From contig AP025576.1 of NCBI GenBank assembly GCA_022845955.1, forward strand, positions 4,278,001-4,342,000: a stretch of DNA of 64,000 bases, in the 5' to 3' direction. The notes under the pieces were generated by a model. That model did no database searches. It was not told where the DNA came from and saw nothing but the letters and a program-made list of their open reading frames with translations. Numbering within the stretch: position 1 is the stretch's first letter; every line of letters begins with the position of its first letter. Positions 15,006-62,414 of the stretch are shown here, in pieces. The translations under genes were made by a program, and so were the position numbers. The DNA is from Lachnospiraceae bacterium. GTDB lineage: Bacteria > Bacillota > Clostridia > Lachnospirales > Lachnospiraceae.

Positions 15006-15332
15006 CAAAGTTACGGGTGCAGATAAAAATTCCGAGTGTCCTCCGGGGAAAGGGTTCCGTCCCGGGTCCTGGCCCCCTGCCATGACTCTCCCGGCTGCCG
15101 TCTCCAGGCAATCAGTGATTCCTGTAAGGGGCGTTTAAAAACGCCAGTCCTTACGCTGCGTCTTTTGCGGCGTTAGTACTGCTGCGTTTTTAGCCGAGCG
15201 CAAGCGTACCTTGTAAGGAACACTGATTGCCTGGAGACGGCAGCCGGGAGAGCCATGGCAGGGGACCAGGACCCGGGACGGAACCCTTTCCCCGGAGGGC
15301 ACTCGGAATTTTTATCTGCACCCCAGAGTTAT
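15006..15332. mobile_element. Fold-back element, copy 1 (103-nt arms, 103-nt core)
   Basis: The left arm 15015-15117 and right arm 15221-15323 are exact-length inverted repeats with 3 transitions in 103 positions, beginning GGGTGCAGATAAAAA. The core 15118-15220 starts ATTCCTGTAAGGGGCGTT, contains its own GGCGTTTAAAAACGCC hairpin, and ends AAGGAA. Flanking 9-mers CAAAGTTAC (15006-15014) and CAGAGTTAT (15324-15332) agree at 7 of 9 positions, as an aged target duplication would. No protein is encoded. The core is shared with the element at 62159, but the arms are not. Confidence 0.8.
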
Positions 15333-15345
15333 GAAAAAACGTTCC

Positions 15346-16167
15346 CTATACCCGCTTGTGCACCAGAAGTGTAGTACAAAAGAAGGTAAAGGCCCCCGCG
15401 CACAATACCCCTCCGAAACAGGCAACAGCAGCTCCTGCAAGGGGATATCCCTGCAGCAGCAATACAAGAAGCATTGCCAGAAGAAAGAACAGTAACAAGC
15501 CGCAAATACCGCCGCACAATGCCGCTGCAATCACAACAATATTCCGGCACCATCTGACGCACCAGAAAAAGAACTGCGAAAAAACAAAGCCGATTTCCCC
15601 AAATATATTCCCCAGGCTGCTTCCCCTAACAAAACCGGTCCTGTCCGTCTCCGGCCCCGCATCCCCCGTGCCTTGCTGCAAAAGTTCCCCGTCCCGTATG
15701 TCTCCGCCTGCTTTTTCTCCCGTGATCCAGTCTCCCAGCCAACGGAACGGGGCGCCTAAAACTTCTCCGATTACTTCCATAATCTCTCCGGCTGCCACCA
15801 GAATCTGTTTCCCCATGTTTTTTATTGCCCTGCCGGTATCCACCGTATAATCCGCAATTTGTCCGGCAGTCTCCTCCAGGGTATCAGCTATTTCGTTAAA
15901 CACCGAAGTTTTTTCCGGCTCAGCGGCAGTCATTCCTCCGTCTGCCTCTAAATCCCGGTATCCCGGATTCACATGGTAGGCTTCAAGAATTCTGGCTGCA
16001 AGCTCCCGTACATTTCCAAAATAACGGACGGCCTCCGCCTCACTGAGTCCCGCACTGATTTTCATATCGATATGCTGGGCATATTCTTCCAGAATATCCG
16101 CCTGTTCTCCCTCCTCCAAAATGGAGAGATACGATTGCAGTTCCATCAAAAATTCATCTTTATCCAT
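15346..16167 (-). CDS. DUF1700/HAAS-domain membrane protein
   Basis: A 273-residue protein. The N-terminus MDKDEFLMELQSYLSILEEGEQADILEEYAQHID is the DUF1700 (HAAS) domain. A polar middle follows, then three C-terminal hydrophobic segments (about 178-262). Such proteins usually sit directly after a PadR regulator gene in a two-gene stress operon; here no PadR gene precedes it and the 250 upstream bases lack one. The fold-back element lies immediately beyond its 3' end. Confidence 0.8.
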   Translation of the reverse strand: MDKDEFLMELQSYLSILEEGEQADILEEYAQHIDMKISAGLSEAEAVRYFGNVRELAARILEAYHVNPGYRDLEADGGMTAAEPEKTSVFNEIADTLEETAGQIADYTVDTGRAIKNMGKQILVAAGEIMEVIGEVLGAPFRWLGDWITGEKAGGDIRDGELLQQGTGDAGPETDRTGFVRGSSLGNIFGEIGFVFSQFFFWCVRWCRNIVVIAAALCGGICGLLLFFLLAMLLVLLLQGYPLAGAAVACFGGVLCAGAFTFFCTTLLVHKRV

Positions 16168-16323
16168 TTTCCTGCTCCCTTAAAAATTTACCGCTGAACG
16201 ATTAAATAAAGTCTCCGTCAATTACTATATTATGCACACTACTATGTATTGTCAAGTACTAAGGAAAGCAAAATACTTAAGCTTTTCTTAAAAACCGGGG
16301 AATGGCGTGAATACCGCCTGAAA

Positions 16324-16361
16324 CGGAAATAAAGCACGGCAGCTGCCATGCTTTATTTCCG
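16324..16361. terminator. Strong stem-loop terminator
   Basis: CGGAAATAAAGCA / TGCTTTATTTCCG, then TTTTT on the plus strand and TTTC on the minus strand. Lies 57 bases beyond the nitroreductase stop. The rest of 16168-16418 is AT-rich, with a possible promoter for the DUF1700 gene near 16220-16260. Confidence 0.7.
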
Positions 16362-16418
16362 TTTTTACAGCTGTTGTTTTTTCCCCTTTTCTCCTAAATG
16401 GCCGGCAAAACCTTATCC

Positions 16419-16994
16419 TTAGAGAAAGGTTACCACATCCTCCCTTTTTCTTTTAGGTACTACGTAATCTCTGTTCTCATCCAGGTAATATTTGATATCC
16501 CCGGGTTCTTCCGCATCCGTAATGCGGCTTTTGTGGGATGGATAACCGAACGCTACCACCGTATGCAGCTTCTGCTCCTGCGTCAGTCCGAACATCGCGG
16601 AAAGCTTTGTTTTGTCACATGCGCCGATGATACAGCTCCCCACGCCGTGGTTCCAGGCCGCCAGTGTCATATTTCCGATAGCCAGGCCGGCGTCCGTATC
16701 ACAGTCCTGGCTGACAGACAGGTTCTCAACTACCGCAATGAACAGGACCGGCTTCTCCCCGTCCTTAGGCTGGCCGTCCCCGGGAGGAAGATAGCCTGCC
16801 CACCGGGTACATTGAAATACATCTTCCACTTTTTTCGCATCCCGGATCACCACATAGCTCAAAGGCTGTTTATTGGCGGCGCTGGAGGCCAGCCTTGCTG
16901 CATACAGAATTTCGTCAATAATATCCCTGCTTACCTCTTTTTGCAGGAATCTACGATAGGTACGCCTTCCTGTCAGCAATTCCATAAGTTCCAT
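16419..16994 (-). CDS. Nitroreductase-family FMN oxidoreductase
   Basis: 191 residues. It starts MELMELLTGRRTYRRFLQKEVSRDIIDEIL, the FMN-binding RRTxRxF entry, followed by ARLASSAANKQPLSYVVIRD, then DAGLAIGNMTLAAWNHGVGSCIIGA, the family's second flavin contact. It uses NAD(P)H to reduce quinones, nitro compounds or flavins. It begins 3 bases after the DUF2007 gene, so they are co-transcribed. Confidence 0.88.
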   Translation of the reverse strand: MELMELLTGRRTYRRFLQKEVSRDIIDEILYAARLASSAANKQPLSYVVIRDAKKVEDVFQCTRWAGYLPPGDGQPKDGEKPVLFIAVVENLSVSQDCDTDAGLAIGNMTLAAWNHGVGSCIIGACDKTKLSAMFGLTQEQKLHTVVAFGYPSHKSRITDAEEPGDIKYYLDENRDYVVPKRKREDVVTFL

Positions 16995-16996
16995 TT

Positions 16997-17254
16997 TTAT
17001 TCCTCCCCTTTATCCGCTCCGGGATAAAGTCCCATTCCTTCCAGGATCTCCCCCGCCTTTTCCGCATCCGGTTCCGCTACATAGATCTCTTCCCCGCACA
17101 TGGCATTCCCTGCATAGATATTCATAAAACCGCTTTCATCCACATCTTTCTTATAAGCAGGAACTCCGTTCTGCTTCAGCGTATCCAGCACCATTTCCGC
17201 CTGGATATTATCCTGTGCGGTAACTATCTTTACCACGTTAACCTCGTCCATCAT
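16997..17254 (-). CDS. DUF2007-like small protein
   Basis: 85 residues: VVKIVTAQDNIQAEMVLDTLKQNGVPAYKK... EIYVAEPDAEKAGEILEGM, the ferredoxin-like pattern of DUF2007 (often called a putative signal-transducing protein). It has two consecutive ATGs; GGAGGAGA stands right before them. Its start overlaps the acetyltransferase stop by 4 bases, which suggests translational coupling. Confidence 0.75.
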   Translation of the reverse strand: MMDEVNVVKIVTAQDNIQAEMVLDTLKQNGVPAYKKDVDESGFMNIYAGNAMCGEEIYVAEPDAEKAGEILEGMGLYPGADKGEE

Positions 17255-17799
17255 TCTCCTCCTTTTTCACGCAGTCTCTTCGCCATATAAATGTCCGGTT
17301 TGCCATAGCCGTTCACATCCGGCAGAACTCCAACGATACGATAACCGTTTTTCTGGTAAAATTCATAGGGATGGTTTTTCTCATTCCTTATATTTTCTAT
17401 TTTTTGAAAGGTATCGATAAAAAGATCCCCTCTGGAAAGGCTTGTGGCACCGTCCTCATCGTCCGTCCCCAGATACAGGACGACAGCCCCCTGCTCCAGC
17501 GCTTCTTTTTCGATTTCCTTTACAAGCAGACTGCCGATTCCCTGTTTTCTTGCTCCGGTTTTCACAACCAGCGGATGGAGTTCCCATCCATATGGCCCGT
17601 AGGTGGGACGGGCACCCACAAAACCGAGAACCTGCTCTTCCTCCACCGCCGCCAGCACCGGGCCCGCTTCCAGGAGACAGGGCATTTCCGCCTCCGCTTC
17701 CTCCCATGTATTCCAGGCATGCGCAAAGTATTCCAGCAAAAGCCGGGCGCATTCCGACAGCTTTTCCTTATCCTCTCCCGACAGCCGTACTATTTTCAT
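17251..17799 (-). CDS. GNAT-family N-acetyltransferase
   Basis: 182 residues with the acetyl-CoA signature VVKTGARKQGIGSLLVKEIE and a C-terminal YEFYQKNGYRIVGVLPDVNGYGKPDIYMAKRL, close to aminoglycoside-type or small-molecule GNATs. The start is the ATG at 17799, 9 bases after GGGGAGG, in preference to the ATG at 17808. It overlaps the phosphoesterase gene by 32 bases. Substrate unknown. Confidence 0.85.
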   Translation of the reverse strand: MKIVRLSGEDKEKLSECARLLLEYFAHAWNTWEEAEAEMPCLLEAGPVLAAVEEEQVLGFVGARPTYGPYGWELHPLVVKTGARKQGIGSLLVKEIEKEALEQGAVVLYLGTDDEDGATSLSRGDLFIDTFQKIENIRNEKNHPYEFYQKNGYRIVGVLPDVNGYGKPDIYMAKRLREKGGE

Positions 17800-18676
17800 T
17801 ATCCGCATCCTCCCCCTTCTTCCAATGCCGTTCACTGATTGCCTGCTCCCAGTATTTCTCCGGGATTTCAGGCCAGTTACAACAGCCGCAATCCGTTTTA
17901 CACAATTCCATAACCCGTCCCAGAATCGTTCCATGAGATACCTTGCCTTCCCGGAGAATCTTCTCCGTTATCAGGCTCCAGTAAGGGGCATGAAACTGCA
18001 TGCCTGCCTCATACATTTCCCGGATCACCCTGTCCGTATCATAAGACAGGCTGATAAATTCTTCCCTCCATGCGCCGTTTTCCCCATGCAGTATCATATA
18101 CTGCGTCTTTCCGCCGCTGCCGAGCGGGATTCCCACCGCGCCGGGGTTCAAAACGTTTTTTTCCCCATACGCTATTTTTCTCTGTACATGGGTATGCCCG
18201 CACAGAACGAGCGGTGTTTCCACACGCTCCATTATCCGCATTGTCTTTTCATCCTCCGGAAGCAGCTTGTCATTCACCCGGTACGGGGATCCATGACATG
18301 CGGTAAATCCGGGAAAGCCTTCAAGCTTTATTTCCCGGGATATTTCCATTTTTTCAAAAAAAGACAGATCCTCCGGTGACAGGCGGCGGTATGCATACAA
18401 GAGGGAACCGCTTGTGGAAGATCCATCCTTCCACCCCTGCTCCCCGCCGTCACGGTAAGAAAACCAGTATTCTTCTTTGTTTCCCCTGATAAACCAGCAT
18501 GGAAACCTTTTATTGAGTTCATATAACAGCTGCATCGAACGTTCCGGATATCCCAGTTCGCCGACATAATCCCCTAAGAAAAGAAAGGTGTCAATATGCC
18601 TCGAATACGCATGGGACAGACAGCGTTCCAGCGCCACATAGTTGCCGTGTATATCTGACAGAACCGCAATATTCAT
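17768..18676 (-). CDS. Calcineurin-like metallophosphoesterase
   Basis: 302 residues with the metal-binding motifs D-x-H (LSDIHGNY, residues 7-13), GDxxG (FLGDYVGE), RGNKE (the GNH/E position) and CGHTHV. Follows the YfcE/MJ0936-type layout, with NPGAVGIPLG before the C-terminus. Probably a phosphodiesterase or phosphatase in the cytosol; substrate not predictable. It is first of a four-gene minus-strand operon with the GNAT, DUF2007 and nitroreductase genes. Confidence 0.85.
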   Translation of the reverse strand: MNIAVLSDIHGNYVALERCLSHAYSRHIDTFLFLGDYVGELGYPERSMQLLYELNKRFPCWFIRGNKEEYWFSYRDGGEQGWKDGSSTSGSLLYAYRRLSPEDLSFFEKMEISREIKLEGFPGFTACHGSPYRVNDKLLPEDEKTMRIMERVETPLVLCGHTHVQRKIAYGEKNVLNPGAVGIPLGSGGKTQYMILHGENGAWREEFISLSYDTDRVIREMYEAGMQFHAPYWSLITEKILREGKVSHGTILGRVMELCKTDCGCCNWPEIPEKYWEQAISERHWKKGEDADNENSTAVGRG

Positions 18677-18912
18677 ATCTTTGTTTCCTCCTTGTCCACT
18701 GCCCCTGTGTCACACTTTTCCCACGCAAAGCGGGACGGCGGGAATGCATTTTCAAACACATTCCAGGGCCGGTTCTTCCGCGAAGGCATGGTATATAAAC
18801 CTACACCTTTTTGAATATTTTTATTGTAACATGTGAACTACCGCAATTCAACAAACCATGCCCATATTCCTTCCGGGCGTTCTAAATAATGGTTACAATA
18901 CGAGTACGAAAA

Positions 18913-18949
18913 GAACCGTACCGGGCCTCGCTTAGACCCGGTACGGTTC
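18913..18949. terminator. Terminator of the first glycan locus
   Basis: GAACCGTACCGGG / CCCGGTACGGTTC, 13-bp stem, followed on the minus strand by TTTTCG. Lies beyond the stop of the GH43-like gene. The other bases of 18677-19015 hold the upstream region of the phosphoesterase gene and no gene that I can support. Confidence 0.75.
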
Positions 18950-19015
18950 GCACTCTGTCATAACCCTTGCCAGCTTTTTTTGTAACTGCCGGCTTTCAGG
19001 ACATATCACACACAT

Positions 19016-19927
19016 TTAAACCCGCTCTGTTTTCACAAACGGCATTTCCTTTTCAAACTGGATCTCCACCTTAGACAGGTACCATGATTTCCCATTGTCG
19101 TTATTTCCCTGATAAAACAGATACACGCGGCCATCCTCATCCTCAAATACATAGGGATGCCCGGACTCAGAGGCGTTCCAGCTTCCGGGAACGCCGTTTT
19201 TCAGGACAGGCTCATCATACAGCCTCCTGAAATGAATCCCATCCTCACTGACAGCTACTCCCACCTGCTGAGGACAATTATTATAGGCTCCCGCATAAAA
19301 CAGATAGACCTTCTCATATCTGCACAGCGCTGCCGCCGCTTCAATGCAATCCTGTTCCCAGGGAAGTTCCGGCCTCAGAATCGCATCCTCACAACACTGT
19401 TTCCAGCTGTCCCGTCTGAATTCTCCGTCCAGAGGGCATTTGCTGACACCCTGCATCTGTATCTTTCCTTCCGGATCTCTGGTTGCAAAATATAAGAACA
19501 GTTCTCCGCGAAAAACACAGACATCTGCATCAATAGCTCTTCCATTGTTCCAGCCGCCCTCCGCCCGCAGAATCGGGTTTGTTGTATTTCTGGTAAAATG
19601 AATCCCATCTTCAGACCAGGCATGACAGATTGCATCCTTTTCAAAACGTCCGTACGTCTGATAAAAAAGATGCACCTTCCCTTCGTGGACAAAAGCACCG
19701 GGAGCACAGATCCCCAGAGTTTCCAGCTCGCCTGCCGGATCGATATCCGCAATTTTTTCCCAGTTCTCCAAATCTGTGCTCCGGGCAATCCCAATCCCCC
19801 ATACATTCTGCGGCATGGCCTTTCCGGGATTCAGCGTATAATACATATAATATTGATTATGGAAACGGACTACTGCCGGATCCTTTGCAAAATTCAGCCC
19901 TCTGGAGCTGTCCGTATACATCATCAT
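19016..19927 (-). CDS. GH43-like five-bladed propeller glycosidase
   Basis: 303 residues made of repeating blades with the pattern FAKDPAVVRFHNQYYMYYT, APGAFVHEGKVHLFYQTY, IDADVCVFRGELFLYFATRD, SGHPYVFEDEDGRVYLFYQG. This is the GH43/GH117/GH130 beta-propeller type; the catalytic DP near residue 17 and the E in CIEAAAA fit GH43/117. There is no signal peptide, so it acts on imported oligosaccharides. It is last in the minus-strand glycan operon, 18 bases after the GH105 gene. The exact family and sugar (arabinose, galactose derivative) are unresolved. Confidence 0.75.
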   Translation of the reverse strand: MMMYTDSSRGLNFAKDPAVVRFHNQYYMYYTLNPGKAMPQNVWGIGIARSTDLENWEKIADIDPAGELETLGICAPGAFVHEGKVHLFYQTYGRFEKDAICHAWSEDGIHFTRNTTNPILRAEGGWNNGRAIDADVCVFRGELFLYFATRDPEGKIQMQGVSKCPLDGEFRRDSWKQCCEDAILRPELPWEQDCIEAAAALCRYEKVYLFYAGAYNNCPQQVGVAVSEDGIHFRRLYDEPVLKNGVPGSWNASESGHPYVFEDEDGRVYLFYQGNNDNGKSWYLSKVEIQFEKEMPFVKTERV

Positions 19928-19945
19928 TTTATTTTCCCCGTTAAA

Positions 19946-22117
19946 TTAATTTTTCATCGTGCTGTCTAAGGACAGCAGTTCGTTACCTGCAAGCAGGACA
20001 ATCCCTATACCATGATTGTCATTGGTCACCCAAAACAATTCGTCACTGTAATATTCCTTTGTGAACGAGAATCCTGAACCCTTACATACGCCGTGGACTG
20101 ATCCGTCTCTGTCAATACAATATTCTGTCAATCCCTTAAATCCTCTTTCGGCCGCTTCTCTGTAAAGAGGCGCTTCCTCTCCATACCACCCGTTCTTAAT
20201 GCCTTTACAAAAAGCAAACGTAAACATAGCGGTGCAGGAAGCTTCTTCATAAGACAAAGGATCCGTAAGCACCTGATGCCACAATCCTTTCTCTCCCTGC
20301 AGTTTTCGATAAGAATGGCTTAGCGTCAGGAACAGCTTCATGAGGTCGTTATAATTCTCCGCCTCTTCCGTCAAGCCATCCAGAAAATAGGCCAGCGAAA
20401 ATAATACCCATCCATTTCCGCGTCCCCAGGGAATCCCCGTTGCACATTTCCTGCTCAGATCATATACATGGGAAAACACACCTGCCTCCGGCATAAATAA
20501 ATAGGAAGAGAACTTCAGAAACTGTCCGGCCGCCAGTTTAAGCACCTCTATATCACCAGTAATATCATAAAGGCACCTTAAAAACGGCGTACTCATATAT
20601 AAGTCGTCAGCCCAGATTGTAGCAGTGCCATGGGAACCGGCGGACGGACGGTAAAAGGTTCCATCCTCCAGCTTCGGAAGCTTATGTACAATGAATTCCC
20701 TGATGCGGTCAGCAATTTCCAAGTATCTCTCATCCGGATCCAGCTTATAGCATTCCAGCATGGCAAGACCCATAGAACCGCAGTCATCCAGGCACTCCAG
20801 CCGCACCAGATTTTGATCAAAGGCAGGATATCCATTCAGCGATTTATCAAAAATCGCTGACTCATACAGGGATACGCATGTTTTTATATGGCTCTCAACA
20901 TAATATGTAATATCCTCTTTTCCCAGGCTCACAGCGGTTCTGAGCAGGCCAAAAAGTGTTACTCCCAGCGGATAATCCCACCTTCCAAAAGCACTTCCCC
21001 CCTGACTGACCCAGTATTTATCACCATAAGAGCCTTCAAAAAATGTTCGGAGACATAAATTTTTGCTGTCAAGAAGCCATCTTTTTCCGCCGGGCATTAC
21101 CAGTATATTAAACAGCTCTTCCTGTTTTGCTTCCCACTCTGATTCAAAGCATCCTGTATAGACCCAGCTTTCAAACGTTCCATTTATTTTTCCGGGGGAC
21201 AGAATGCCGCATCCTTTTGTCCGTACGATAGCGCCATAAGCCATTCCGGTGCATCTGCTTATCACCTTTAAATCCGCACCGCCGTTTAAGGGAACAGGGA
21301 TTTCAAAAGTTCCTGCTTCACACGCAAGCAGTAATTCTTCTCCCAGATATACTTTATTATATCCGAAACTCTCTATTACCAAGGAACACGCCTTCGCATT
21401 TTCTGCTCCCCTCTCCAGCTTACACCATGCAATGCAGTATCCTCCGCCTTCAGGAAATAACCTCTGCTGCGGAGTGACTGCACCAATCGCTTCTTTTTCC
21501 GTATCCGGATTCCAATGGATAAGATCGAACTCTTCCGAATTCCAATCCAGACCGTCTCCCGCCTCGCTCTTCCACACAGGTTTTGTCTCCAGCAAATCCG
21601 ACCATACCCATCCTGCCTGTCCTTCTCTTCCTTCCAGCGGTGACAAAACGGTTGTCTGGGGCAGGGAAATCTGACAGCCAAAACCGGCAGCCGTCCTTCT
21701 GCATAGCAAAGTGAGCGTGTTCCTTCCCTGTTTCAGTTCAGCATCGATCGAATGCCACAGATTCTGGTTGATTTCATCCGTAAACGTCGAGCGAAATATC
21801 AGATTATCGTTTACATAAAGTTCTACCGGAGAAAAACAGGTTATTCCTATGGTAACCGTCTTTTCCAGGCCGCTCATCAAAATACCGCCAATTATGGAAT
21901 ATCCATATGTACCGGCTCCTAATTTAGAAGTCAAATCAAGCTTCCAGCTTCCATCAGAAGATTGTACAAACTGATCCCTGCCGACCGCACGCACCCGGAA
22001 GGTTGTAGGCGGATTTGCTCCCACGTATCGGTCTGCTATTACCAAAAGCTGAGACTTGAGCGTTCCCATATCCTTTGCAATACTCCACTCCGGTTCGAAA
22101 AGGGTAAGTTTCTTCAT
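19946..22117 (-). CDS. GH105-type unsaturated uronyl hydrolase with N-terminal beta domains
   Basis: 723 residues. The first ~330 look like beta-sandwich domains (YVNDNLIFRSTFTDEINQNLWHSIDAELKQGRNTLTLLC resembles a sugar-binding jelly roll). The C-terminal ~380 are an alpha/alpha barrel with IWADDLYMSTPFLRCLYDI (around residue 500; the aspartate pair is catalytic in YteR-type GH105) and WGRGNGW. It would cleave the unsaturated uronic acid that lyases leave on rhamnose-linked oligosaccharides. No signal peptide. Its ATG overlaps the stop of the upstream 656-residue gene by 4 bases. Confidence 0.82.
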   Translation of the reverse strand: MKKLTLFEPEWSIAKDMGTLKSQLLVIADRYVGANPPTTFRVRAVGRDQFVQSSDGSWKLDLTSKLGAGTYGYSIIGGILMSGLEKTVTIGITCFSPVELYVNDNLIFRSTFTDEINQNLWHSIDAELKQGRNTLTLLCRRTAAGFGCQISLPQTTVLSPLEGREGQAGWVWSDLLETKPVWKSEAGDGLDWNSEEFDLIHWNPDTEKEAIGAVTPQQRLFPEGGGYCIAWCKLERGAENAKACSLVIESFGYNKVYLGEELLLACEAGTFEIPVPLNGGADLKVISRCTGMAYGAIVRTKGCGILSPGKINGTFESWVYTGCFESEWEAKQEELFNILVMPGGKRWLLDSKNLCLRTFFEGSYGDKYWVSQGGSAFGRWDYPLGVTLFGLLRTAVSLGKEDITYYVESHIKTCVSLYESAIFDKSLNGYPAFDQNLVRLECLDDCGSMGLAMLECYKLDPDERYLEIADRIREFIVHKLPKLEDGTFYRPSAGSHGTATIWADDLYMSTPFLRCLYDITGDIEVLKLAAGQFLKFSSYLFMPEAGVFSHVYDLSRKCATGIPWGRGNGWVLFSLAYFLDGLTEEAENYNDLMKLFLTLSHSYRKLQGEKGLWHQVLTDPLSYEEASCTAMFTFAFCKGIKNGWYGEEAPLYREAAERGFKGLTEYCIDRDGSVHGVCKGSGFSFTKEYYSDELFWVTNDNHGIGIVLLAGNELLSLDSTMKN

Positions 22118-24084: not shown

Positions 24085-24119
24085 AATATAGTCCGCCTTT
24101 TAGCATCATCGGTTAGACA

Positions 24120-24146: not shown

Positions 24147-24179
24147 AATCATCTTCATTATTTATTACGTAAACTGTAG

Positions 24180-53184: not shown

Positions 53185-53269
53185 GAATTCAATTCATCAG
53201 CCAAACAGCATCCTGCTGCTTGGCGTTATTACAATCCGGTATAGCAAAAAACAGAGAGGTTTGAAAATT

Positions 53270-53524: not shown

Positions 53525-53526
53525 AA

Positions 53527-53578
53527 AAATTCCGGCACAGCCGAAGAAGGCTCTCCTTCTCCCGCTGCGCCGGAATTG
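53527..53578. terminator. Bidirectional terminator
   Basis: AATTCCGGC(A)CAGC / GCTG(C)GCCGGAATT with a 20-nt loop, between the convergent TfoX-like and SDR genes. Confidence 0.65.
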
Positions 53579-53605
53579 TGATCGGCCTGCTTTTATTTTC
53601 GTATT

Positions 53606-54313
53606 TTACCAGGGAAATTGGATGCCGTTATGATCCATAAAGACAGCGTCGTTACGTCCTTCCCTCACATCCTCCAGCAATTCCGTCAAACGGCAAGCGG
53701 TTTCGTAAGGATCCTGGGTCGCCGCCTGTCCCCCCATATCCGTACGCATCCAGCCGGGGTGGACGGCGATGACCCTTATGCCCTTATCCTTCAGATAGTT
53801 GTGAAGCAGCTTGGTTCCCATATTCAGGGCCGCTTTGGACATACAGTAATCAAATTCCTTAATCCTTCCTGCCGTACCGATACTTCCGCTTTCGGAGGAA
53901 ATATTGGCTGCCAGGCCGGAATTGCCCTTCAGCAGAAGGGGAAGAAACGCCTTCACCACCCGGAGAGGCCCCACCGCATTTACATTATAAACCGGCAGGC
54001 AGTCATCCAGATCGGTATCCTCCAGTTCCAGAAAAGAAGTATCTGAATGGATTCCCGCATTGTTTATAATAATATCCAGATGATCCGTACAATCTGATGC
54101 CGCGGCGGCAGCGTTTATTACCGACCGGGTATCGGATACATCCATCCGCAGGGGTATCAGCAGGTCACCGTACCTTGCCTTCAGCTCCTGAAGCCCTGGA
54201 GCCGCTTCCTCCCTGGCACCGGCGAAAACCGTACATCCCTCCTCCAGATATTTTCTCGTGAGGCATAACCCCAGCCCCCTTGAAGCCCCTGCAATCAAAA
54301 CATTCTTATTCAT
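53606..54313 (-). CDS. Short-chain dehydrogenase/reductase
   Basis: 235 residues. Nucleotide motif LIAGASRGLGLCL, IIINNAG motif, catalytic serine in NISSESGSIG and YxxxK as YCMSKAALN. A classical SDR with NAD(P)H; substrate unknown. C-terminal PGWMRTDMGG is common in sniffer/CsgA-like SDRs. AGGAAAGAT lies upstream. Confidence 0.9.
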   Translation of the reverse strand: MNKNVLIAGASRGLGLCLTRKYLEEGCTVFAGAREEAAPGLQELKARYGDLLIPLRMDVSDTRSVINAAAAASDCTDHLDIIINNAGIHSDTSFLELEDTDLDDCLPVYNVNAVGPLRVVKAFLPLLLKGNSGLAANISSESGSIGTAGRIKEFDYCMSKAALNMGTKLLHNYLKDKGIRVIAVHPGWMRTDMGGQAATQDPYETACRLTELLEDVREGRNDAVFMDHNGIQFPW

Positions 54314-54410
54314 ATCTTTCCTTTATCCTTTCTTTTCCACCCGCCGCAGAACCAGCGGCCGGCGGCGTAAACTTTGTTTTATATGTATCCTTTTTCCCGC
54401 GGGCAACGAG

Positions 54411-54586
54411 CCAAACGGATGCACTCGTGCATCCACTTGGCGGCTGCCGCGAGGGGTGCTATGTGCCGGTGGCACATGTTTAGCACCGACCGAAGCGGAG
54501 CGTAGACCAAATACCCATACACTTTAGTGTATTGCGCTCGCTGCGTAACAAGTTTGATGCCCCGTCAGCTTGCTGCGGGGTATTTG
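54411..54586. repeat. Multi-hairpin intergenic repeat element
   Basis: A series of stems: CCAAACGGATGCAC / GTGCATCCACTTGG (54411-54440); GGTGCT-ATGTGCC-GGT-GGCACAT-GTTT-AGCACC (54455-54487); ATACAC / GTGTAT (54517-54532); ATGCCCCG / CGGGGTAT (54557-54583); and a long-range CAAATACC / GGTATTTG. It reads into the end of the ankyrin gene. I think similar sequence recurs in other Lachnospiraceae, but that is from memory and needs a search. Confidence 0.55.
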
Positions 54587-55424
54587 ACTTTCTATACCGA
54601 CGTAAAAGCGTAAGTAGTTTGTCGGACTGTTCTTCCGGCACCGTGCTTTTATCCAGCAGGAATTGTAAATACTCTTCCGAATCCTTTCCCGTACCATTTT
54701 CCGCCGCCAAATCCGCACCCGCTTGAAGGAAACGTTCCAAAAGCAGCAAATCCTCCTCACTAATTATATTATCCTCCACACTATATCTTATCACATATTG
54801 TACAGGCGGCATGACATTATAGCTGCGGCAGACATCAGGCTGATAGTTCAGAAGCAGATTCAGCATATCCACGTTTAATACCGAATTAATCGATCTGCTG
54901 CACACCAGTGCTATGGCGGTATCCGATCCGGCTCCTCCCACCCGATTGACATCAGCACCCGCATCCAGCAGATAAGCTGCCACCCGGGGAGAATCATAGC
55001 GGATTGCCGCCCCCAACGGATTATAGCCCTCATGGGTAATATAGCCATTTAATTCCGGTGCCTCTGCCAGCATGCCGGCAACAAGATCCGTATCATCTGC
55101 CTGTATAGCCTTTACGAAATCATCCGCCTGCGACTGAAGAACCTCTGCCGTTCCGGCGGCGGTCTCCACAGAAACGGTTTTCGGACGGCTGACAAGCAGA
55201 TACAGGACTCCGAAAAAACAAAAGATAAGTAAGGCAAGGATCCCGCTGACAATGGAAACAATTTTTTTGATCCCTCTGCTGCGGAAACGATCCGGGCGCT
55301 TTCTGCTTTTCAGATACAAAACTGCGAAAATAATGCTTACGAGAAAAGCCGCCGCTCCTATGACAAAAATCCCCAGCAGAATCCAAAAAATAAAATTAAG
55401 CAGAATAACACTGAAAAAAGCCAT
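54480..55424 (-). CDS. Membrane-anchored ankyrin-repeat protein, C-terminus replaced by repeat DNA
   Basis: 314 residues from MAFFSVILLNF (ATG at 55424, GGAGAGGAGAGGG upstream). Two membrane segments (about 5-35 and 55-80), then ankyrin-like repeats in the soluble part (GYNPLGAAIRYDSPRVAAYLLDAGADVNRVGG; VDMLNLLLNYQPDV; LLLLERFLQAGADLAAENG). The last ~35 residues, from about YRKSNTPQQ, are encoded by the hairpin repeat element, so the original stop has probably been lost. Role unknown; ankyrin repeats mediate protein contacts. Confidence 0.75.
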   Translation of the reverse strand: MAFFSVILLNFIFWILLGIFVIGAAAFLVSIIFAVLYLKSRKRPDRFRSRGIKKIVSIVSGILALLIFCFFGVLYLLVSRPKTVSVETAAGTAEVLQSQADDFVKAIQADDTDLVAGMLAEAPELNGYITHEGYNPLGAAIRYDSPRVAAYLLDAGADVNRVGGAGSDTAIALVCSRSINSVLNVDMLNLLLNYQPDVCRSYNVMPPVQYVIRYSVEDNIISEEDLLLLERFLQAGADLAAENGTGKDSEEYLQFLLDKSTVPEEQSDKLLTLLRRYRKSNTPQQADGASNLLRSERNTLKCMGIWSTLRFGRC

Positions 55425-55587
55425 CGTCCCTCTCCTCTCCAAAACAGCTGCCGTTATGTATCATTATACATCCCTCCGCCGTCACTGTCACCTGTTTTAC
55501 CTGAAGCGGACTTATGCTATCCGGCGGCCGTTCAACAGAGAATGGGACGGCTGTCCCTGCCCTGCAGGCACGCTTCACAGGACGGGA

Positions 55588-56646
55588 TTAACGCTTTCTG
55601 AGTTTCTCAAAGATTTCGTTATAATACAGGCAGTTTTCCACCGGTGTATTGGGCGGAATATGGTTTCCCACCGCCATGAAAAAGCCGGGACAGGACTTTC
55701 CGATATCCATACAACGCTTCACCTCATTGTAGATATCCTCCCTGCTGCCGCTCAGGAGAATCCTGGTGTCCGCATTCCCAATAAAGGAATGGGTTTTTCC
55801 ATATTTCTCCGCAACATACTTCATATCCGTAGTAGGTTCCATCACAAAACCGTTTACCCCGCAGGCGGCAATATCATCAATAAACTCCGTATAATTCCCG
55901 TCGGAAGTGAAAATAATCTTCTTCCCGGCTTCCCGCAGAGGCGCAAAAAGCCGTTTATAATTAGGAAAAATATACTCCCGGTACCAGTCAGGTCGTGCAA
56001 AGGCACCCGATGTCCAGGTAATATCGTCGTGCACCTTTACCACCGGCGCATCACACAGGGCAAGCGCATTGAAATACTGCTGTATCCATTTTCCATATCG
56101 GTTTGCGGTTTCCCCGAAGGCCTTTGCATCAATCCCCATGGCCATCAGCAGGATATCCCAGCCGAAGATTTCCAGAAGGCCGGAAACCATGGTGATATAC
56201 ACCCCCGTCGTATTGACGGCATCCGGCGTCATCTCCATTTTACTGCGGTAATCCTCATTATACATGGCAACCAGCTTTGCTTCCTCCAGACTGCCGTATA
56301 CTTCCTCCGGTGAAAACGTAAATGCCTCTTCCGGATCCTCAAAGGGACATTCCACCCGGCTGCTGTAATCCGTTCCATCCGCAGCATATTCCGCATGTCC
56401 CATGCGTGTCCTGCACCGTTCCAGGGCATCCGCCCCCACGCGTATATTCCAAACAAACCCATAATCCCATGCCCTGCGGAATGCACTGGCCGCACGGCAC
56501 TGCACCTCGCATGGACTTTTGGAATCCACCTCCATGCCTGTGACCCGGCGTACCAGATCCCAGTGGAAATCCGCGGAATATTCCGTCCGGGGTACCTTTT
56601 CCGGCATTTCCAGACAAATAGCTTCCATTCCTTCTTTATATGACAT
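55588..56646 (-). CDS. Uroporphyrinogen-decarboxylase-family methyltransferase
   Basis: 352 residues from MSYKEGMEAICLEMPEKVPRTEYS, with GAGGAGGAAAAAG before the ATG at 56646. The barrel has VKVHDDITWTSG, IIFTSDGNYTEFIDDIAACGVNGFVMEPTTDM and C-terminal FFMAVGNHIPPNTPVENCLYYNEIF, as in MtaA/CmuA-like cobamide methyltransferases; no HxCx(n)C zinc site is evident. Divergent from an AraC gene, 113 bases away. Substrate unknown; true heme enzymes are unlikely given the context. Confidence 0.8.
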   Translation of the reverse strand: MSYKEGMEAICLEMPEKVPRTEYSADFHWDLVRRVTGMEVDSKSPCEVQCRAASAFRRAWDYGFVWNIRVGADALERCRTRMGHAEYAADGTDYSSRVECPFEDPEEAFTFSPEEVYGSLEEAKLVAMYNEDYRSKMEMTPDAVNTTGVYITMVSGLLEIFGWDILLMAMGIDAKAFGETANRYGKWIQQYFNALALCDAPVVKVHDDITWTSGAFARPDWYREYIFPNYKRLFAPLREAGKKIIFTSDGNYTEFIDDIAACGVNGFVMEPTTDMKYVAEKYGKTHSFIGNADTRILLSGSREDIYNEVKRCMDIGKSCPGFFMAVGNHIPPNTPVENCLYYNEIFEKLRKR

Positions 56647-56759
56647 CACTTTTTCCTCCTCATACCGCTTTATACACTGGATTTTCAACCTGGAATCTAT
56701 TATAATAGCTGCTATGGAAATGTACATTGTTTTATGGAACAGAAAGATGGACTTTTGAA

Positions 56760-57578
56760 ATGAGCAACCAATCCTTTTCCCTGCTGAACACCGACCTGAA
56801 CCGGCTGGATCTGCGTATCGTCGAAAACGGGATATTCCATGGCGATAAAAGCTGGCGCTTTAATGATGTGATATCCTCCTTCAACCGGCTGTATTTTATC
56901 CAAAGCGGAAATGCCTTTATTGAGCGGGACGGTCTCCGCTGTCCCCTGCTGCCCGGAAGGATGTATCTGATCCCGGCAGGCACCAGGTATAATTATGTCT
57001 GCACCTCTCAGATCCAGAAATTTTATATCCATTTTGAGCTGGAGCTTTTTCCGGGAGTGGATATTTTCAACGGGCTAAGGGACTATCTGGATGCTCCCTG
57101 TCCGGACGGCTGTCCGGAGAATCTGATTACCTTTGCACAAAACGGCTCCCTCTCCTGTCTTCTGCGGTTGAAATCCCTGTTTATGGAACTGATAGCCGGG
57201 TTCCTTGCACAGGCGGTTGGAGAAAAAAGCTATGGAAATGACTATGCCGGCTTTTACCGGCAGCATGCGGTTCTGAACTATATTACCGCCCGCCTGAGCG
57301 CCGGGCTGCGCGTTTCCCAGGTAGCGCAGGCTCTCGGGATCCCCCGCCATATCCTGTCCCGCAGCTTCCGTCAGGATACCGGTATCGGGTTAAAGGATTA
57401 TATGGAACAGCTTCTTCTCCAGGAAATTAAAAAACGGATGCTGACCACAAAACAGCCCCTCTGCCAGATTGCAGAAGAGCTGGATTTTTGCGACGCTTAT
57501 TATCTGTCACGCTTTTTCCGGAAGTACGAACAAATATCTCCCAGAGAATACCGGCAGCGCAGGACCGGGCAGGAGTAG
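56760..57578 (+). CDS. AraC-family transcriptional regulator
   Basis: 272 residues from MSNQSFSLLNTD; an earlier in-frame ATG at 56727 exists but neither start has a strong site. N-terminal cupin (YFIQSGNAFIERDGLRCPLLPGRMYLIPAGTRYNY), C-terminal AraC domain (LRVSQVAQALGIPRHILSRSFRQDTGIGLKDYMEQLLLQEIKKRML...CDAYYLSRFFRKYEQISPREYRQ). Likely controls the divergent methyltransferase gene. Confidence 0.87.
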   Translation: MSNQSFSLLNTDLNRLDLRIVENGIFHGDKSWRFNDVISSFNRLYFIQSGNAFIERDGLRCPLLPGRMYLIPAGTRYNYVCTSQIQKFYIHFELELFPGVDIFNGLRDYLDAPCPDGCPENLITFAQNGSLSCLLRLKSLFMELIAGFLAQAVGEKSYGNDYAGFYRQHAVLNYITARLSAGLRVSQVAQALGIPRHILSRSFRQDTGIGLKDYMEQLLLQEIKKRMLTTKQPLCQIAEELDFCDAYYLSRFFRKYEQISPREYRQRRTGQE

Positions 57579-57603
57579 TGCGGATATTCTTTTTTATGCC
57601 GCC

Positions 57604-58050
57604 TTATGCATCTATTTCCATCCATTTTTTCATTCCGGAGGAACCGCAGGAAAAACCAAATTTTTCATAGAATTGCTCTTTCCCTTTTACTGCGGTTAAG
57701 CCCACTTCTATTGCAGTGCCCGGCAGCGCAGTGCTTTTAATATATTCTATTAGCCTGTTTACAATACTTTTTCCGATTCCCATTCCCTGGTATTCCGGAA
57801 GGACAATAATTTCCTGCAAATACCAATACATTGCCCCATCGCCCACAAGGCGGCCCATTCCAACCACTTTTCCCTCACTATATGCGGAAACATTGAATAA
57901 TCCATTTTCCAACGCTTTTTCCGCCTGTTTGAGAGGTCTGTCCATGAATCCTGCCGCTACCTTTAATCGTATAAAATCTTCTGCACGTAACGAATTATCC
58001 AACAACACAAATTGTACCTTTTCCACGATATTATCCTCCGCAATCCTCAC
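57604..58050 (-). CDS. GNAT-family N-acetyltransferase
   Basis: 148 residues. The acetyl-CoA motif is VLPEYQGMGIGKSIVNRLIEYI; the C-terminal YEKFGFSCGSSGMKKWMEID is typical. The first codons MRIAEDNIVEKVQFVLLDNSLRAEDFIRLKVAAGF place it in the common small YjcF/YhfO-like group. A GGA-rich site precedes the ATG. Convergent with the AraC gene. Substrate unknown. Confidence 0.87.
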   Translation of the reverse strand: MRIAEDNIVEKVQFVLLDNSLRAEDFIRLKVAAGFMDRPLKQAEKALENGLFNVSAYSEGKVVGMGRLVGDGAMYWYLQEIIVLPEYQGMGIGKSIVNRLIEYIKSTALPGTAIEVGLTAVKGKEQFYEKFGFSCGSSGMKKWMEIDA

Positions 58051-58113
58051 TTTTCCGATATAACGTAACTACGATGGAACTGTATGATCCAACAGAACCC
58101 GTTTACCGCCATG

Positions 58114-58245
58114 CTACAGCAGTCCGTATTCCCTATAGAGTTTTTTCCTGTATTCTCTGTCTTTCGCCGCTCTCAATAAATCTTCTGTCCGGGAAGCGGT
58201 CAGCAGTTTTTCAGTTAATGCAGCAAATTGTTTATCACCCCTTTT
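58114..58245 (-). pseudogene. C-terminal scrap, possibly of an Rpn/PD-(D/E)XK transposase-like gene
   Basis: The reading GDKQFAALTEKLLTASRTEDLLRAAKDREYRKKLYREYGLL, about 44 residues, looks like the helical tail of Rpn-family recombination-promoting nucleases, as far as I recall. There is no start with a binding site and no upstream part, so it would be a remnant. Confidence 0.35.
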
Positions 58246-58413
58246 TCTCCTCTGCGTTCCCCCTGTCTGTCCTGAAGTTCTGAGGCTCCATCTCATTAGC
58301 CTCTATCAGATTCAACCTATAGTTCGCAAGAAAAGGACTCCTTTTAGTTATCAAACTGTCCTATCAGGCAATTCCGGGTCATCGCAGACAGCACATGCCG
58401 GCTATATAAATTA

Positions 58414-59214
58414 TCAGATTGTCGGAGAATGTATACAGATTTCCCTAAGCTCCCGGATCATATCCCCGATATAGCGTTGCCCCTGCCCGTCAAACAGATG
58501 GGCAAACAGTCCATCCAGATTTTCCTCAAAATGGGCGGGAAGAAGGCGGCACTGGGACAGGCATAGGGAAACCAGCTTTTTCTCTCCCGGGTGGGTCTTT
58601 TCGTTCAGGGCAAAAATAACGTCAAAATAGCTCTCCAGGAAAGCGGCGGTACGATGGTTAACACTCACAAAATCCCCGCGCTGCCGCGCTTTCTTTATCT
58701 GCATATCATATGAAGGGAGGACTCCGCCCAGCAGCTTCAGATTCCGTTCGATAATGTTATGCTTCAGGATTTTGGGATAGGGGACTGCATATTCCTGTTG
58801 TAAGGCCGCCAGCCTCCCGTCCCGGTCATACAGAATCCGGCAGGTATTGAGATTATGCCACATACAGGTGGTATATCCATTGGATGCATTCCCTTCTTTT
58901 ACCACCCATCGCAGTCCCCTTTCAAAATCGGGGAGGCTGCGGTAGATAATATCCAGATCTACCCCATTTTTCAGACGGCAGTTATCTTCCCTTTCCCAAT
59001 AGCGGTTATCGATTTCCATACGGTCGCAGTAGGCTGCCAATATGGGTTCCCTTTCCCCGGCCGTAAGCTCCCCGCATACATACACATAGACGTCATAGTC
59101 CGATTTCTCATCTGCATTTCCGGCAGCCCTGGAACCTCCCAGCGCTATGGCCTCCACACCAGGACAGGAGGCAAGCCTGTCCCACAGTTTTGTGATATCC
59201 AATGTCTGCTCCAT
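58414..59214 (-). CDS. Nucleotidyltransferase-fold protein with DUF4037-like C-terminus
   Basis: 266 residues. The N-terminus has the pol-beta-type motif ALGGSRAAGNADEKSDYDVYVYV (GGSxxxG...DxD) and a later acidic residue in LKNGVDLDIIY. The C-terminal part is helical and DUF4037-like. It could add nucleotides to a small molecule such as an aminoglycoside. It starts 4 bases before the stop of the GH2 gene downstream in position, so the two are in one operon. Confidence 0.78.
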   Translation of the reverse strand: MEQTLDITKLWDRLASCPGVEAIALGGSRAAGNADEKSDYDVYVYVCGELTAGEREPILAAYCDRMEIDNRYWEREDNCRLKNGVDLDIIYRSLPDFERGLRWVVKEGNASNGYTTCMWHNLNTCRILYDRDGRLAALQQEYAVPYPKILKHNIIERNLKLLGGVLPSYDMQIKKARQRGDFVSVNHRTAAFLESYFDVIFALNEKTHPGEKKLVSLCLSQCRLLPAHFEENLDGLFAHLFDGQGQRYIGDMIRELREICIHSPTI

Positions 59215-59218
59215 TTCC

Positions 59219-60907
59219 TTATTTCTCCTGAAAATAGTTTCCGAAACTGCGGTAGCTTTCCTTTACGGTTTCATAGGCCAGCTTTGGCCTTCTGTATTCA
59301 TCCACAATCCCTTTGTTGTTCATCGTCCTGGGACGCGAACCGAACCAGCTGTCGCATACGCGCACGTCACAGAACTGCCAGATGTAAAGGCCGCTGCATC
59401 CTTCCCGGGTAAGAACTGCCTGAAGCTGTTCCTTCAACGCCCGGACCTGGTATTCCTCCGACCATTTCACACAGGCAGGGGTACGGTAGCCATAGATGGC
59501 CCCCGCTCCGATTTCCGTGATCAAAAACGGCTTTCCAGCGCCCTCCGATCCGCTCTGTACCCACTGGTAAAGATCTTCCAGATAATCCGCCACAGATGTA
59601 TCATGATACCATTTGGGATAAATATTATAGGACACTACCTCCGGGAATCCCAGGCAGATATCTGTCTTGAAACGGCAGCTGGAGGAGGAACGGGGACGGA
59701 AGGGATCCAGGGCGGCTATCAGCGCATATTGGGAAGCATAGCAGTCCCGGCCATATTCCGTATCGCTTGCACACTCATTTAATATCCCCCAGATATAAAT
59801 GGAAGGATGGTTATAATGTGCGGTGATCATCTCCCGGATGCAATCCTCACACTGCTGTTCAAAATGAGGGTTGCGCATGTTTTCTTCAGAAAGCCCCCTG
59901 GCATGGTTTTCTTCCCATACAAGGATCCCCTGCTCGTCACACAGATCCAGAAACAGCTCGTCGTTAGGGTAATGCACGGTGCGGATGGAGTTCGCGCCCA
60001 TATCCTTAGCCAGCATCAGATCATACTGCATGGCGGTAAAAGGAAGGGCGCAGCCGAACTGGGGATGATCCTCATGTCGGCAGAAGCCTTTTATCCGCAG
60101 CCTGCGGCCGTTGAGCAGAATATCCTTTCCCTCTGTCCTGATCTCCCGGAACCCTGTCCGGTCAATGAGATCATCAATAGCCCGCTGTTTCGTACTGAGC
60201 ACCGCGGAAACCGAATACAGCACCGGAGCTTCCGGCGACCAGCATTCCGCCCAGGGGCAGGGCACTTCCTCTGTAGTAAAACATCTTGTTTCTTCTCCCG
60301 CAAGAACTGCCGGAAGCACGGCAAACGGATATCCGCCGATTTCCACCGCAAGGGACCCTTCAAATCCATCCCCGGAAAGGTTCCTCACACAGATTTCCGC
60401 TTTGCCGTACCAGCCGTCCTTTCTCAGGAACGGGGTCACATGGATCCAGCAGATATAAGCCTCCTCCAGTTCCTCCAAAACCACACCGCGGGAGATGCCC
60501 CCATAAGACTGGTAATCATTCGGTACATGGAGGGCGGAATCCGGCCCGAAGGAGTTATCCGCAATCACCTCCAGCCGGTGGGTCCCCGGCCTGATCCCTT
60601 TTATTACCGCGTCGAAAGGCGTATAGGCATTATAATGGGAAGCCGCCTGCTCCCCGTCCACCAGCACCGATGCCGTATGGCTCACTCCTTTAAATTCCAG
60701 CCGGATATTGCCTTTTGCTTCAAACTCCCTGGAATAAACAGCCTTTCCCCGGTATGAAACCGTGTCCGGATACGTTTCCCAGCAGCCGGGAACCGGAACC
60801 AGGCAGTCCCTGCCCTCTCCCTCTTCCCCCAACGTATGGAAATTCCATAAGGCAGAGGATAACTCCGTCGTCTTTCTGATCTTGTGGGTGTCAAAAGTAC
60901 GTATCAT
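59219..60907 (-). CDS. GH2-family beta-glucuronidase-like enzyme
   Basis: 562 residues from MIRTFDTHKIRKTTE (GGGAAGGG upstream of the ATG at 60907). Jelly roll and immunoglobulin-like domains, then the barrel with SIYIWGILNECASDT (acid/base E) and KPFLITEIGAGAIYG (nucleophile E). MNNKGIVDEYRRPK carries the N-x-K motif that binds the glucuronate carboxylate, which supports beta-glucuronidase over beta-galactosidase. No signal peptide. Gut enzymes of this type release glucuronic acid from glycans or drug conjugates. Confidence 0.85.
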   Translation of the reverse strand: MIRTFDTHKIRKTTELSSALWNFHTLGEEGEGRDCLVPVPGCWETYPDTVSYRGKAVYSREFEAKGNIRLEFKGVSHTASVLVDGEQAASHYNAYTPFDAVIKGIRPGTHRLEVIADNSFGPDSALHVPNDYQSYGGISRGVVLEELEEAYICWIHVTPFLRKDGWYGKAEICVRNLSGDGFEGSLAVEIGGYPFAVLPAVLAGEETRCFTTEEVPCPWAECWSPEAPVLYSVSAVLSTKQRAIDDLIDRTGFREIRTEGKDILLNGRRLRIKGFCRHEDHPQFGCALPFTAMQYDLMLAKDMGANSIRTVHYPNDELFLDLCDEQGILVWEENHARGLSEENMRNPHFEQQCEDCIREMITAHYNHPSIYIWGILNECASDTEYGRDCYASQYALIAALDPFRPRSSSSCRFKTDICLGFPEVVSYNIYPKWYHDTSVADYLEDLYQWVQSGSEGAGKPFLITEIGAGAIYGYRTPACVKWSEEYQVRALKEQLQAVLTREGCSGLYIWQFCDVRVCDSWFGSRPRTMNNKGIVDEYRRPKLAYETVKESYRSFGNYFQEK

Positions 60908-61006
60908 AGCCCTTCCCTTTCTTTTTTCGCCAGTTATGATCAAATCCGGCAGACCGCTTTTTGACTGTGGCCTGCCAAATTCACTCTTTTCCTATTATAA
61001 CGCTTT

Positions 61007-61921
61007 TTATTCCCGATTTCCATCTTTTCGATCCGACGCTTTGCGTATCGGCGGCGGTAATTTAGCTTTCCCGTTCACCCCCCTGCCGATCTGCTTCCGT
61101 TTCACAGGAAACTGCAGCGTATTTCCTCTGCTCGACCGGATATAATCCAGAGCGCCCTCCAAATCCTTTTCTCCATGAATATGATACGCCGGATATGTCG
61201 TATCCACAAAAAGGGGAATATCCATACTTCCGGACCGGATACAGAAAAACAGGGCTTCCTCCTGCTGCGCCGGATCCCTGGCCGGAACAAAACGGATTCC
61301 TCCTTCCATAGACGCCCTGTCTATATAGGTGCAGCTGCCCAGCCCTCCGGCCTCATACACTCCGGATACCTTCAGACGATCTGCAAACTGGCGTTTCCTG
61401 CGGTCCGCTTCTTTTTTATACAAAGCTGCGTTTCTTTTATCCGAATTCGGCGCCCTCTCTTCCATAAGCCATGCATTTGGCCCGGAGGAATGCCCGGCAT
61501 TGCTTTTCGCCCAAAACAGTTCCGAAATGACCCCTTTTTTAGCCGCCCTTAAATATTCCACCAGTTCGGGATGCACAATCAAATCGGAATCAACAAGAAA
61601 TACGGCATCATAGTCATTCTGCATGGCATACCGGATAATCCGGTTCCGGTATCCGGCAACGCGTACAAGCTGTGTTTCTTTCCGTAAAGCCGAATCCTCC
61701 GCCGCAATTCCCTTCACAGACGGCAGAACCGTAACCGAGGAGCCATCCCTTTTAAAGTCTGCCAGAAGCTTCCCTGAAACTTCACTGTCATTGTCATCAA
61801 TGAAAATATAATCTATATCAAATCCCTCATGCTCCACACTTTTCAGGGAAATCAAAAACGCCCTCAGGACACAGGCTCTCTCCCGCACCGGGCTGCCGAT
61901 CAAAACTCTTTCCTTTGCCAT
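61007..61921 (-). CDS. GT-A-type glycosyltransferase
   Basis: 304 residues. VLIGSPVRERACVLRAFLISL starts a Rossmann-like fold; DYIFIDDND and the DxD motif DAVFLVDSDLIVHPE (metal and nucleotide sugar) follow. C-terminal YPAYHIHGEKDLEGALDY, then a basic tail. A cytoplasmic transferase adding sugars to an unknown acceptor. It stands alone; a 99-base gap separates it from the GH2 gene. Confidence 0.75.
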   Translation of the reverse strand: MAKERVLIGSPVRERACVLRAFLISLKSVEHEGFDIDYIFIDDNDSEVSGKLLADFKRDGSSVTVLPSVKGIAAEDSALRKETQLVRVAGYRNRIIRYAMQNDYDAVFLVDSDLIVHPELVEYLRAAKKGVISELFWAKSNAGHSSGPNAWLMEERAPNSDKRNAALYKKEADRRKRQFADRLKVSGVYEAGGLGSCTYIDRASMEGGIRFVPARDPAQQEEALFFCIRSGSMDIPLFVDTTYPAYHIHGEKDLEGALDYIRSSRGNTLQFPVKRKQIGRGVNGKAKLPPPIRKASDRKDGNRE

Positions 61922-62032
61922 CCATACACATCCTTTCTAAAACAAATCCGGTTTCATTTATTATCCTTTTTTCGGGATGTTATCTCCCATTTCGATACCC
62001 CTTACTCTTTCTTCTCCCTTGCGGGAAAAATA

Positions 62033-62063
62033 AAAAGCCACTTTTATCAAAAAAGTGACTTTT
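62033..62063 (-). terminator. Terminator of the second methyltransferase gene
   Basis: On the minus strand AAAAGTCACTTTT and AAAAGTGGCTTTT pair, followed by TTATTTTT. The fold-back element lies between it and the methyltransferase gene. Confidence 0.65.
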
Positions 62064-62158
62064 GTCAGGCTTCCATATTTTGTACGGTCAGCACCCGTTC
62101 ACCAGAGACTGCCGATGTAATAAGTATAACAGCAAAGGGAAGCAATGTCAAACTTATG

Positions 62159-62414
62159 TTCTGATGTGGGTGTAGATAAAAAAGGTAGGCGTCACCCGCC
62201 CCGGCTTCCCTGTGCGGCCTGCTGCCCTGCAAGGATTCCTGTAAGGGGCGTTATAAGCACGCCGGTCCTTAGGCTGCGTCCTTTGCGGCCTTAGTACCGT
62301 TGCGTGATTATCCGAGCGGAAGCGTCCCCTGGAAGGAACCTTGCAGGGCAGCAGGCCGCACAGGGAAGCCGGGGCGGGTGACGCCTACCTTTTTTATCTG
62401 CACCCTTCTGATGT
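62159..62414. mobile_element. Fold-back element, copy 2 (67-nt arms, 104-nt core) with 9-bp target duplication
   Basis: The arms 62168-62234 and 62339-62405 are perfect inverted repeats except one base; outer end GGGTGYAGATAAAAA. The core 62235-62338 begins ATTCCTGTAAGGGGCGTT and ends AAGGAA, as in copy 1. TTCTGATGT stands at 62159-62167 and again at 62406-62414, directly abutting the arms, so insertion with a 9-bp duplication is visible. Together with the terminator it fills 61922-62444. Confidence 0.88.

Follow-up and report, generated by a model that had tools for sequence, protein, structure and literature searches.

The 64,000-nucleotide stretch of DNA considered here (the window), bases 4278001-4342000 of a 7.29-Mb one-contig genome for which 9.46% contamination is listed, carries two near-perfect palindromes, at 15015-15323 (copy 1) and 62168-62405 (copy 2), the positions at which an initial annotation, made from the letters alone, had placed them. 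Its congener G001 is Eisenbergiella tayi DSM 26961 (family Lachnospiraceae), so that the genome appears to belong to the genus Eisenbergiella. The genes adjoining the two copies encode an alpha/beta hydrolase, a HAAS-domain protein, a protein that is weakly glycosyltransferase-like (below the Pfam cut-off) and a protein without a Pfam match. Neither copy contains an open reading frame (ORF) of at least 90 aa, and one ORF of 138 aa starts within the right arm of copy 2. The parts of the two copies are as follows.

15006..15014, no strand: left target-site duplication of copy 1, CAAAGTTAC; 7/9 identical to the right one
15015..15117, + strand: copy 1 left tip and arm, 103 nt (palindrome search and arm alignment)
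15118..15220, + strand: copy 1 conserved core, of the TTTAAAAACGCC type; 118.9 bits to model R1 with flanking pairs; 91/111 columns identical to copy 2
15146..15180, + strand: copy 1 P4 hairpin with the conserved T.T mismatch (sequence and consensus structure)
15200..15203, + strand: copy 1 GNRA tetraloop, GCAA (sequence and loop tally)
15221..15323, + strand: copy 1 right arm and tip (palindrome search and arm alignment)
15324..15332, no strand: right target-site duplication of copy 1, CAGAGTTAT (comparison with the left duplication)
62159..62167, no strand: left target-site duplication of copy 2, TTCTGATGT; exact 9-bp repeat
62168..62234, + strand: copy 2 left tip and arm, 67 nt (palindrome search and arm alignment)
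62235..62338, + strand: copy 2 conserved core, of the main type; 139.3 bits to model R1 with flanking pairs
62264..62298, + strand: copy 2 P4 hairpin with the conserved T.T mismatch (sequence and consensus structure)
62318..62321, + strand: copy 2 GNRA tetraloop, GGAA (sequence and loop tally)
62339..62405, + strand: copy 2 right arm and tip (palindrome search and arm alignment)
62406..62414, no strand: right target-site duplication of copy 2, TTCTGATGT; exact 9-bp repeat

The arms of copy 1 (15015-15117 and 15221-15323) are complementary in 100/103 columns and those of copy 2 (62168-62234 and 62339-62405) in 66/67. The folding energies of the two palindromes are 31 and 24 standard deviations lower than those of dinucleotide shuffles, with 0/100 and 0/200 shuffles folding as well. 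Both have the tips GGGTGCAGATAAAAAT / GGGTGTAGATAAAAAA in common and their cores are identical in 82% of columns, while the left arms, once the 16-nt tips are removed, align with a score of 15 that 771/2000 shuffles reach or exceed, a likeness at the shuffled level. The pair is as first described: two palindromes with common tips, related cores and unrelated arms. Each is flanked by a 9-bp direct repeat, exact (9/9) at copy 2 and 7/9 at copy 1.

About 100 nt long, the core forms a three-way junction that covaries, and is a structure under selection. Across 98 matches from 12 genomes (97 distinct rows) two-sided changes are present at 34/38 pairs, and the structure is paired in 95.1% of cells as against 73.8% when shuffled and 32-50% when slid, with the reservation that alignment of the rows to the model favours pairing. 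Its parts are the stem P2, the long arm P3-P4, in which a CTTAG/CTTAG motif encloses a T.T (U.U) mismatch, and the small hairpin P5, whose loop is GNRA in 96/98 copies, in seven variants, and AAAA in two; a cruder script found GNRA in 215/245 copies. The expectation that a structured core sits on a variable stem, for which covariance analysis had been proposed as the check, was well founded. The GNRA loop suggests that the core works as RNA, but stable loops of similar sequence occur in DNA, so that it is no proof. G.U pairs are rare in the core (104/6383 cells outside the outer helix). The T.T mismatch is kept in 182/198 parsed copies, 47/245 being unparsed (here, and in the arm-mismatch, target-duplication and core G.U/doublet counts, L220 repeats L123 and is counted twice). 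Among the 16 copies parsed as lacking it 12 were judged by eye to be mis-parsed or partial; the genuine exceptions, again by eye, are L070, L123 (= L220) and L184, in each of which the change completes a palindrome, and these are three independent sites. At the curated threshold Rfam gave no match in the window, and a relaxed search of seven loci gave nothing over a family cut-off; the best match over the element, mir-431 on L001 (38.1 bits against 70, E 7e-4), was read as that of a generic long hairpin and rejected. In L010 and L012 an extra hairpin (AACGACTAAAGTCGTT) is inserted behind the GNRA hairpin.

A model built from 15 cores, with full copies counted above 100 bits, finds 30 full-length core copies in the window genome plus one partial copy at 51.7 bits, and 25 weak opposite-strand matches at the same places as core copies. 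The palindromes of the full copies are about 234-310 bp long. Twenty-three of the 30, picked by eye, form a main family to which window copy 2 belongs; the core of copy 1 is of another type, shared with L027-L029 and L090. The tip pattern, allowing at most one mismatch, has 97 matches in the genome and 2 in a backward control, and the 97 take in the tips of core copies, short palindromes that have lost their centre (L033, L044) and ends standing alone. The solo tips L057, L054 and L048 look like the outcome of within-element deletions, perhaps by microhomology. Also found by pattern was a half-core with a new short palindrome (L030).

The distribution of the core is wide within the family. Among relatives it is present in 18/61 at E 0.01, five of these being weak (G004, G005, G007, G008 and G011, E >0.001; loci from two of these genomes, L103 and L105, did not look related). 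Broader sampling found it in 165/397 Lachnospiraceae genomes, representing 146/334 genera, in 65/392 genomes of the order, of which 64 are Lachnospiraceae and one is a weak match elsewhere, and in 5/398 genomes of the phylum, four Lachnospiraceae and G1082, from another class of Bacillota. All four surveys used strict filters and the last three scored at most nine candidates per genome, so that copy numbers are lower bounds. The eight copies of G1082 (L392-L399) have the same core motifs and short arms of 13-30 nt, and are perhaps the ancestral form. Viral contigs gave no exact pattern match (variants would be missed), and blastn with copy 2 matched nothing in collections of plasmids and phages. 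Recently dispersed copies with still other tips occur in other genera, six at 96-99% and three at 86-95% in G676 and five at 92-99% in G073. One locus, L350, has three elements in tandem with a 187-nt period.

Arms that are unique to each copy throughout a genome had been envisaged at the outset. Unrelated arms are found chiefly in E. tayi, where 35/190 arm pairs are similar and 155/190 unrelated, 4/20 copies are without any similar arm, and the arms, of up to 130 bp, have a mean self-complementarity of 0.969. In the main family of 23 the arms are homologous. Similar pairs number 332/435 in the window genome and 90/171 in G002, and 4/45 in G023, of another genus, where self-complementarity is only 74%. 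The arms are thus neither always copy-unique nor merely diverged; they are self-complementary with free sequence. Homologous, merely diverged arms were what the initial annotation had named as counting against its proposal, and the largest family here does have them, though with mirrored pairs making up much of the divergence.

The homologous arms of these 23 copies have changed largely in mirror image. With tips left out there are 74 mirrored cells (32 distinct variants, 18 private to one copy) and 37 one-sided cells (32 distinct), and when the right arms are dealt among copies the mirrored cells average 16.9 and never exceed 32 in 500 shuffles. With tips kept, the corresponding count of 102 mirrored cells and 57 one-sided ones (shuffled mean 22.2, maximum 46) is inflated by misaligned tips. 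In the arms of L140, L147 and L116, units that take in the 3′ portion of the core are duplicated in tandem, with matching inverted units in the left arm of L140.

The residual mismatches are informative about what keeps the arms paired. A tally over 223/245 copies (in the 22 omitted the arm is short, truncated or separated from the core) gives 350 G.U and 357 A.C, with G.U/A.C of 91/119 in Eisenbergiella (p 0.062) and 259/238 in other genera (p 0.37). Two matches on the reverse strand, L184 + and L285 +, were excluded. Removal of L220, the decayed copy L074, and L226, L260 and L292, which are without an exact twin among the loci compared, leaves 345 and 351. If an RNA stem were selected, G.U should be far the commoner, and arm-to-arm copying in DNA synthesis predicts equality; RNA-level selection therefore hardly keeps the pairing, and template switching fits best. 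Among the causes first put forward, selection for a long RNA stem accordingly finds no backing, and template switching between the arms gains from the mirrored changes in excess of shuffles, from A.C being about as common as G.U, and from core mismatches completed to a perfect palindrome at three sites; capture of new DNA into both arms may also play a part.

There is also evidence of mobility. Exact direct repeats of at least 9 nt flank 17/117 copies, compared with 0.44 per shuffle, and in a broader test 34/225 copies are above a score that 2% of controls pass (12/31 in G000, 4/24 in G001, 5/20 in G002, 1/5 in G003 and 12/145 in the others). Some copies in the genus have duplications of 8-9 bp. 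The elements share features of miniature inverted-repeat transposable elements (MITEs) in being short, in having tips paired at both ends as terminal inverted repeats, and in having a target-site duplication at some copies. In a rough tally by tip type, GGGTGYAGATAAAAA-like tips mostly go with 9-bp duplications, five copies with GTTACWGTTCA-like tips (L109, L234, L236, L256, L290) are best at 8 bp, L135 with a similar tip is at 9, and a third tip type, in G002, has duplications of 9-10 bp. These cases, few as they are, suggest that different transposition machineries carried the same core. Duplications of 8-9 bp fit DNA transposition better than the retroelement-like layout that was initially entertained, for which no support was found among the gene families around 118 loci. 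An early retron-like reading was dropped, as nothing pointed to it.

The two window copies probably represent a dispersed mobile element, MITE-like and with no gene evident in it, that has a conserved folded core of about 100 nt and arms renewed by fold-back copying of DNA. During replication the nascent strand would fold back at the hairpin and copy one arm from the other, and a mutation in an arm would be either doubled into both arms or erased. The arms would drift as pairs, with the core staying fixed since copies without it would not spread or would not be kept. Copying of the arms can leave footprints in the core, as at L070, L123 and L184 where the T.T mismatch was lost by a palindrome-completing change. 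Fold-back may, in addition, turn a one-sided transposon end into a pair of terminal repeats, and one core with differing tips and duplication lengths may be present for that reason. A more radical possibility, to be held tentatively and on balance doubtful, is that the core is a selfish module that nucleates palindromes, so that adjacent transposon ends become terminal repeats and it rides unrelated transposases in turn, the core, and not the ends, being what persists.

Several observations weigh against fold-back copying in a mobile element. The mirrored count includes variants shared by descent and counted in several copies, the 18 private ones being the safer figure, and mirrored indels are few, with 2 cells as against 3 one-sided. 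In the core G.U exceeds A.C (104 versus 44) only when two C.A-rich columns are set aside, the figures otherwise being 104 versus 108. In the window genome and E. tayi taken together A.C is ahead of G.U in the arms, 53 versus 23 in a first alignment; a later one gave G.U/A.C of 18/32 (window genome, p 0.065) and 35/43 (E. tayi, p 0.43), in total 53/75. This lead could mean that a transcript of the other strand is weakly selected as RNA. Equal G.U and A.C would also be expected if the arms were selected as a DNA cruciform, which is an alternative to fold-back copying. Most copies (191/225) are without a clear target duplication, and some of the 12/145 outside the genus that have one are probably false. 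No transposase with these tips was found, in a search of two families only and with tips within one mismatch: UPF0236 (PF06782) and Transposase_mut (PF00872) have one gene each in the window genome, both without element tips. Neither window locus has a clean empty site; in the relatives L384 and L385 the site of copy 1 (window 14720-15340) is taken up by different sequence, apparently that of another gene, and looks rearranged, not a clean insertion, while alignment of L374 to the window locus is confined to the gene.

Among other explanations, an ordinary MITE family, in which old copies of one palindrome derived from an insertion sequence have terminal repeats that merely diverged and the core is a passenger, would account for the target duplications, the common tips and the 332/435 homologous arm pairs in the window genome. 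We consider it unlikely: simple divergence breaks pairing, yet many changes are mirrored; it is the core that is conserved across 146/334 sampled genera, and not the ends; and a single core goes with more than one kind of tip and length of duplication. Alternatively, selection might act at the RNA level on the long stem of a non-coding RNA, be it a regulatory RNA or a bidirectional terminator or attenuator. This would be in keeping with the GNRA loop, the covariation of the core and the stable folds, and the A.C lead in the window genome and E. tayi could fit an opposite-strand transcript. The equal frequency of G.U and A.C over 223 copies, and the mixed orientation to neighbour genes, make it improbable. 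At 132 loci 33 have opposite/opposite orientation, 25 same/same, 14 opposite/same and 9 same/opposite, the rest being without a called ORF on at least one side, and the idea of an orientation rule was given up as there is no common orientation. Nor does the neighbourhood supply the co-occurring protein gene for which a search had been suggested, since no neighbour family recurs in at least 4 of 118 loci other than one ABC-ATPase-like group (9/118, named by eye).

REP/REPIN elements, which go with RAYT transposases, are hairpins in tens of copies that often occur as inverted doublets. By analogy with REPINs and their RAYTs, a further explanation would be a single-strand DNA element on whose folded form a nuclease or recombinase acts. 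Element pairs less than 1.2 kb apart among 217 loci comprise 18 divergent, 2 tandem and no convergent (1.6e-9 versus one in four), a count that omits the tandem arrays of G145 and G681, several more divergent pairs and a convergent pair 1.8 kb apart at L290; this excess, as in REP doublets, and the rarity of G.U pairs in the core speak for it. In the doublets L116, L117, L143, L144, L194, L197, L206, L211, L235, L238, L287 and others each element has its own arms, where viewed. A Y1 transposase as required partner was tried and rejected, with no match at E 1e-5 in 7/14 carriers, some of whose genomes are incomplete, and no core near 28 Y1 loci. Duplications of 8-9 bp are not expected of Y1 enzymes, and the copies divide by replication strand into 19 lagging and 11 leading (p 0.20, by hand count with origin and terminus from GC skew). 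A single-strand DNA element is on these grounds improbable.

Searches of open-licence papers turned up no description of the element. Its resemblance to REPINs is in the inverted doublets, 18/20 close neighbours being divergent, and it differs in its much larger core, in that no Y1 transposase turned up in half of the carriers tested, and in the 8-9-bp target duplications. Bacterial MITEs are likewise small and intergenic, with terminal inverted repeats, target duplications and predicted stable stem-loop transcripts, and QMITE2 is described as having duplications of 7-9 bp around a core of 113-145 bp (PMC10969869). By contrast, the covarying core here spans many genera while tips and arms change, and the Eisenbergiella arms are near-perfect palindromes over their full length. 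A MITE-like family in which the core is structured and conserved and the arms drift freely and largely in concert appears new as a combination, though its ingredients are known. A covarying element present in 165/397 Lachnospiraceae genomes and below every Rfam cut-off would be a notable gap in the annotation of gut bacteria, and if tips have been exchanged, it shows a route by which MITEs are born. Palindromic candidate structured RNAs from the human microbiome, with structures on both strands, include some suggested to be REP-like (PMC8040213); four examples that it names are from Bacteroidetes, and overlap with its full list is possible. According to one proposal, perfect stems arise and are kept up through DNA template switching, in which one side serves as template for the other, with multi-base compensatory changes (PMC8794818, PNAS 2022). 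The evidence there is from RNA genes by ancestral reconstruction, and the maintenance of short stems is called less clear; the arms of the present element, in a high-copy bacterial setting with many parallel cases, offer a natural record of hairpin-arm copying, the mechanism there proposed for RNA stems.

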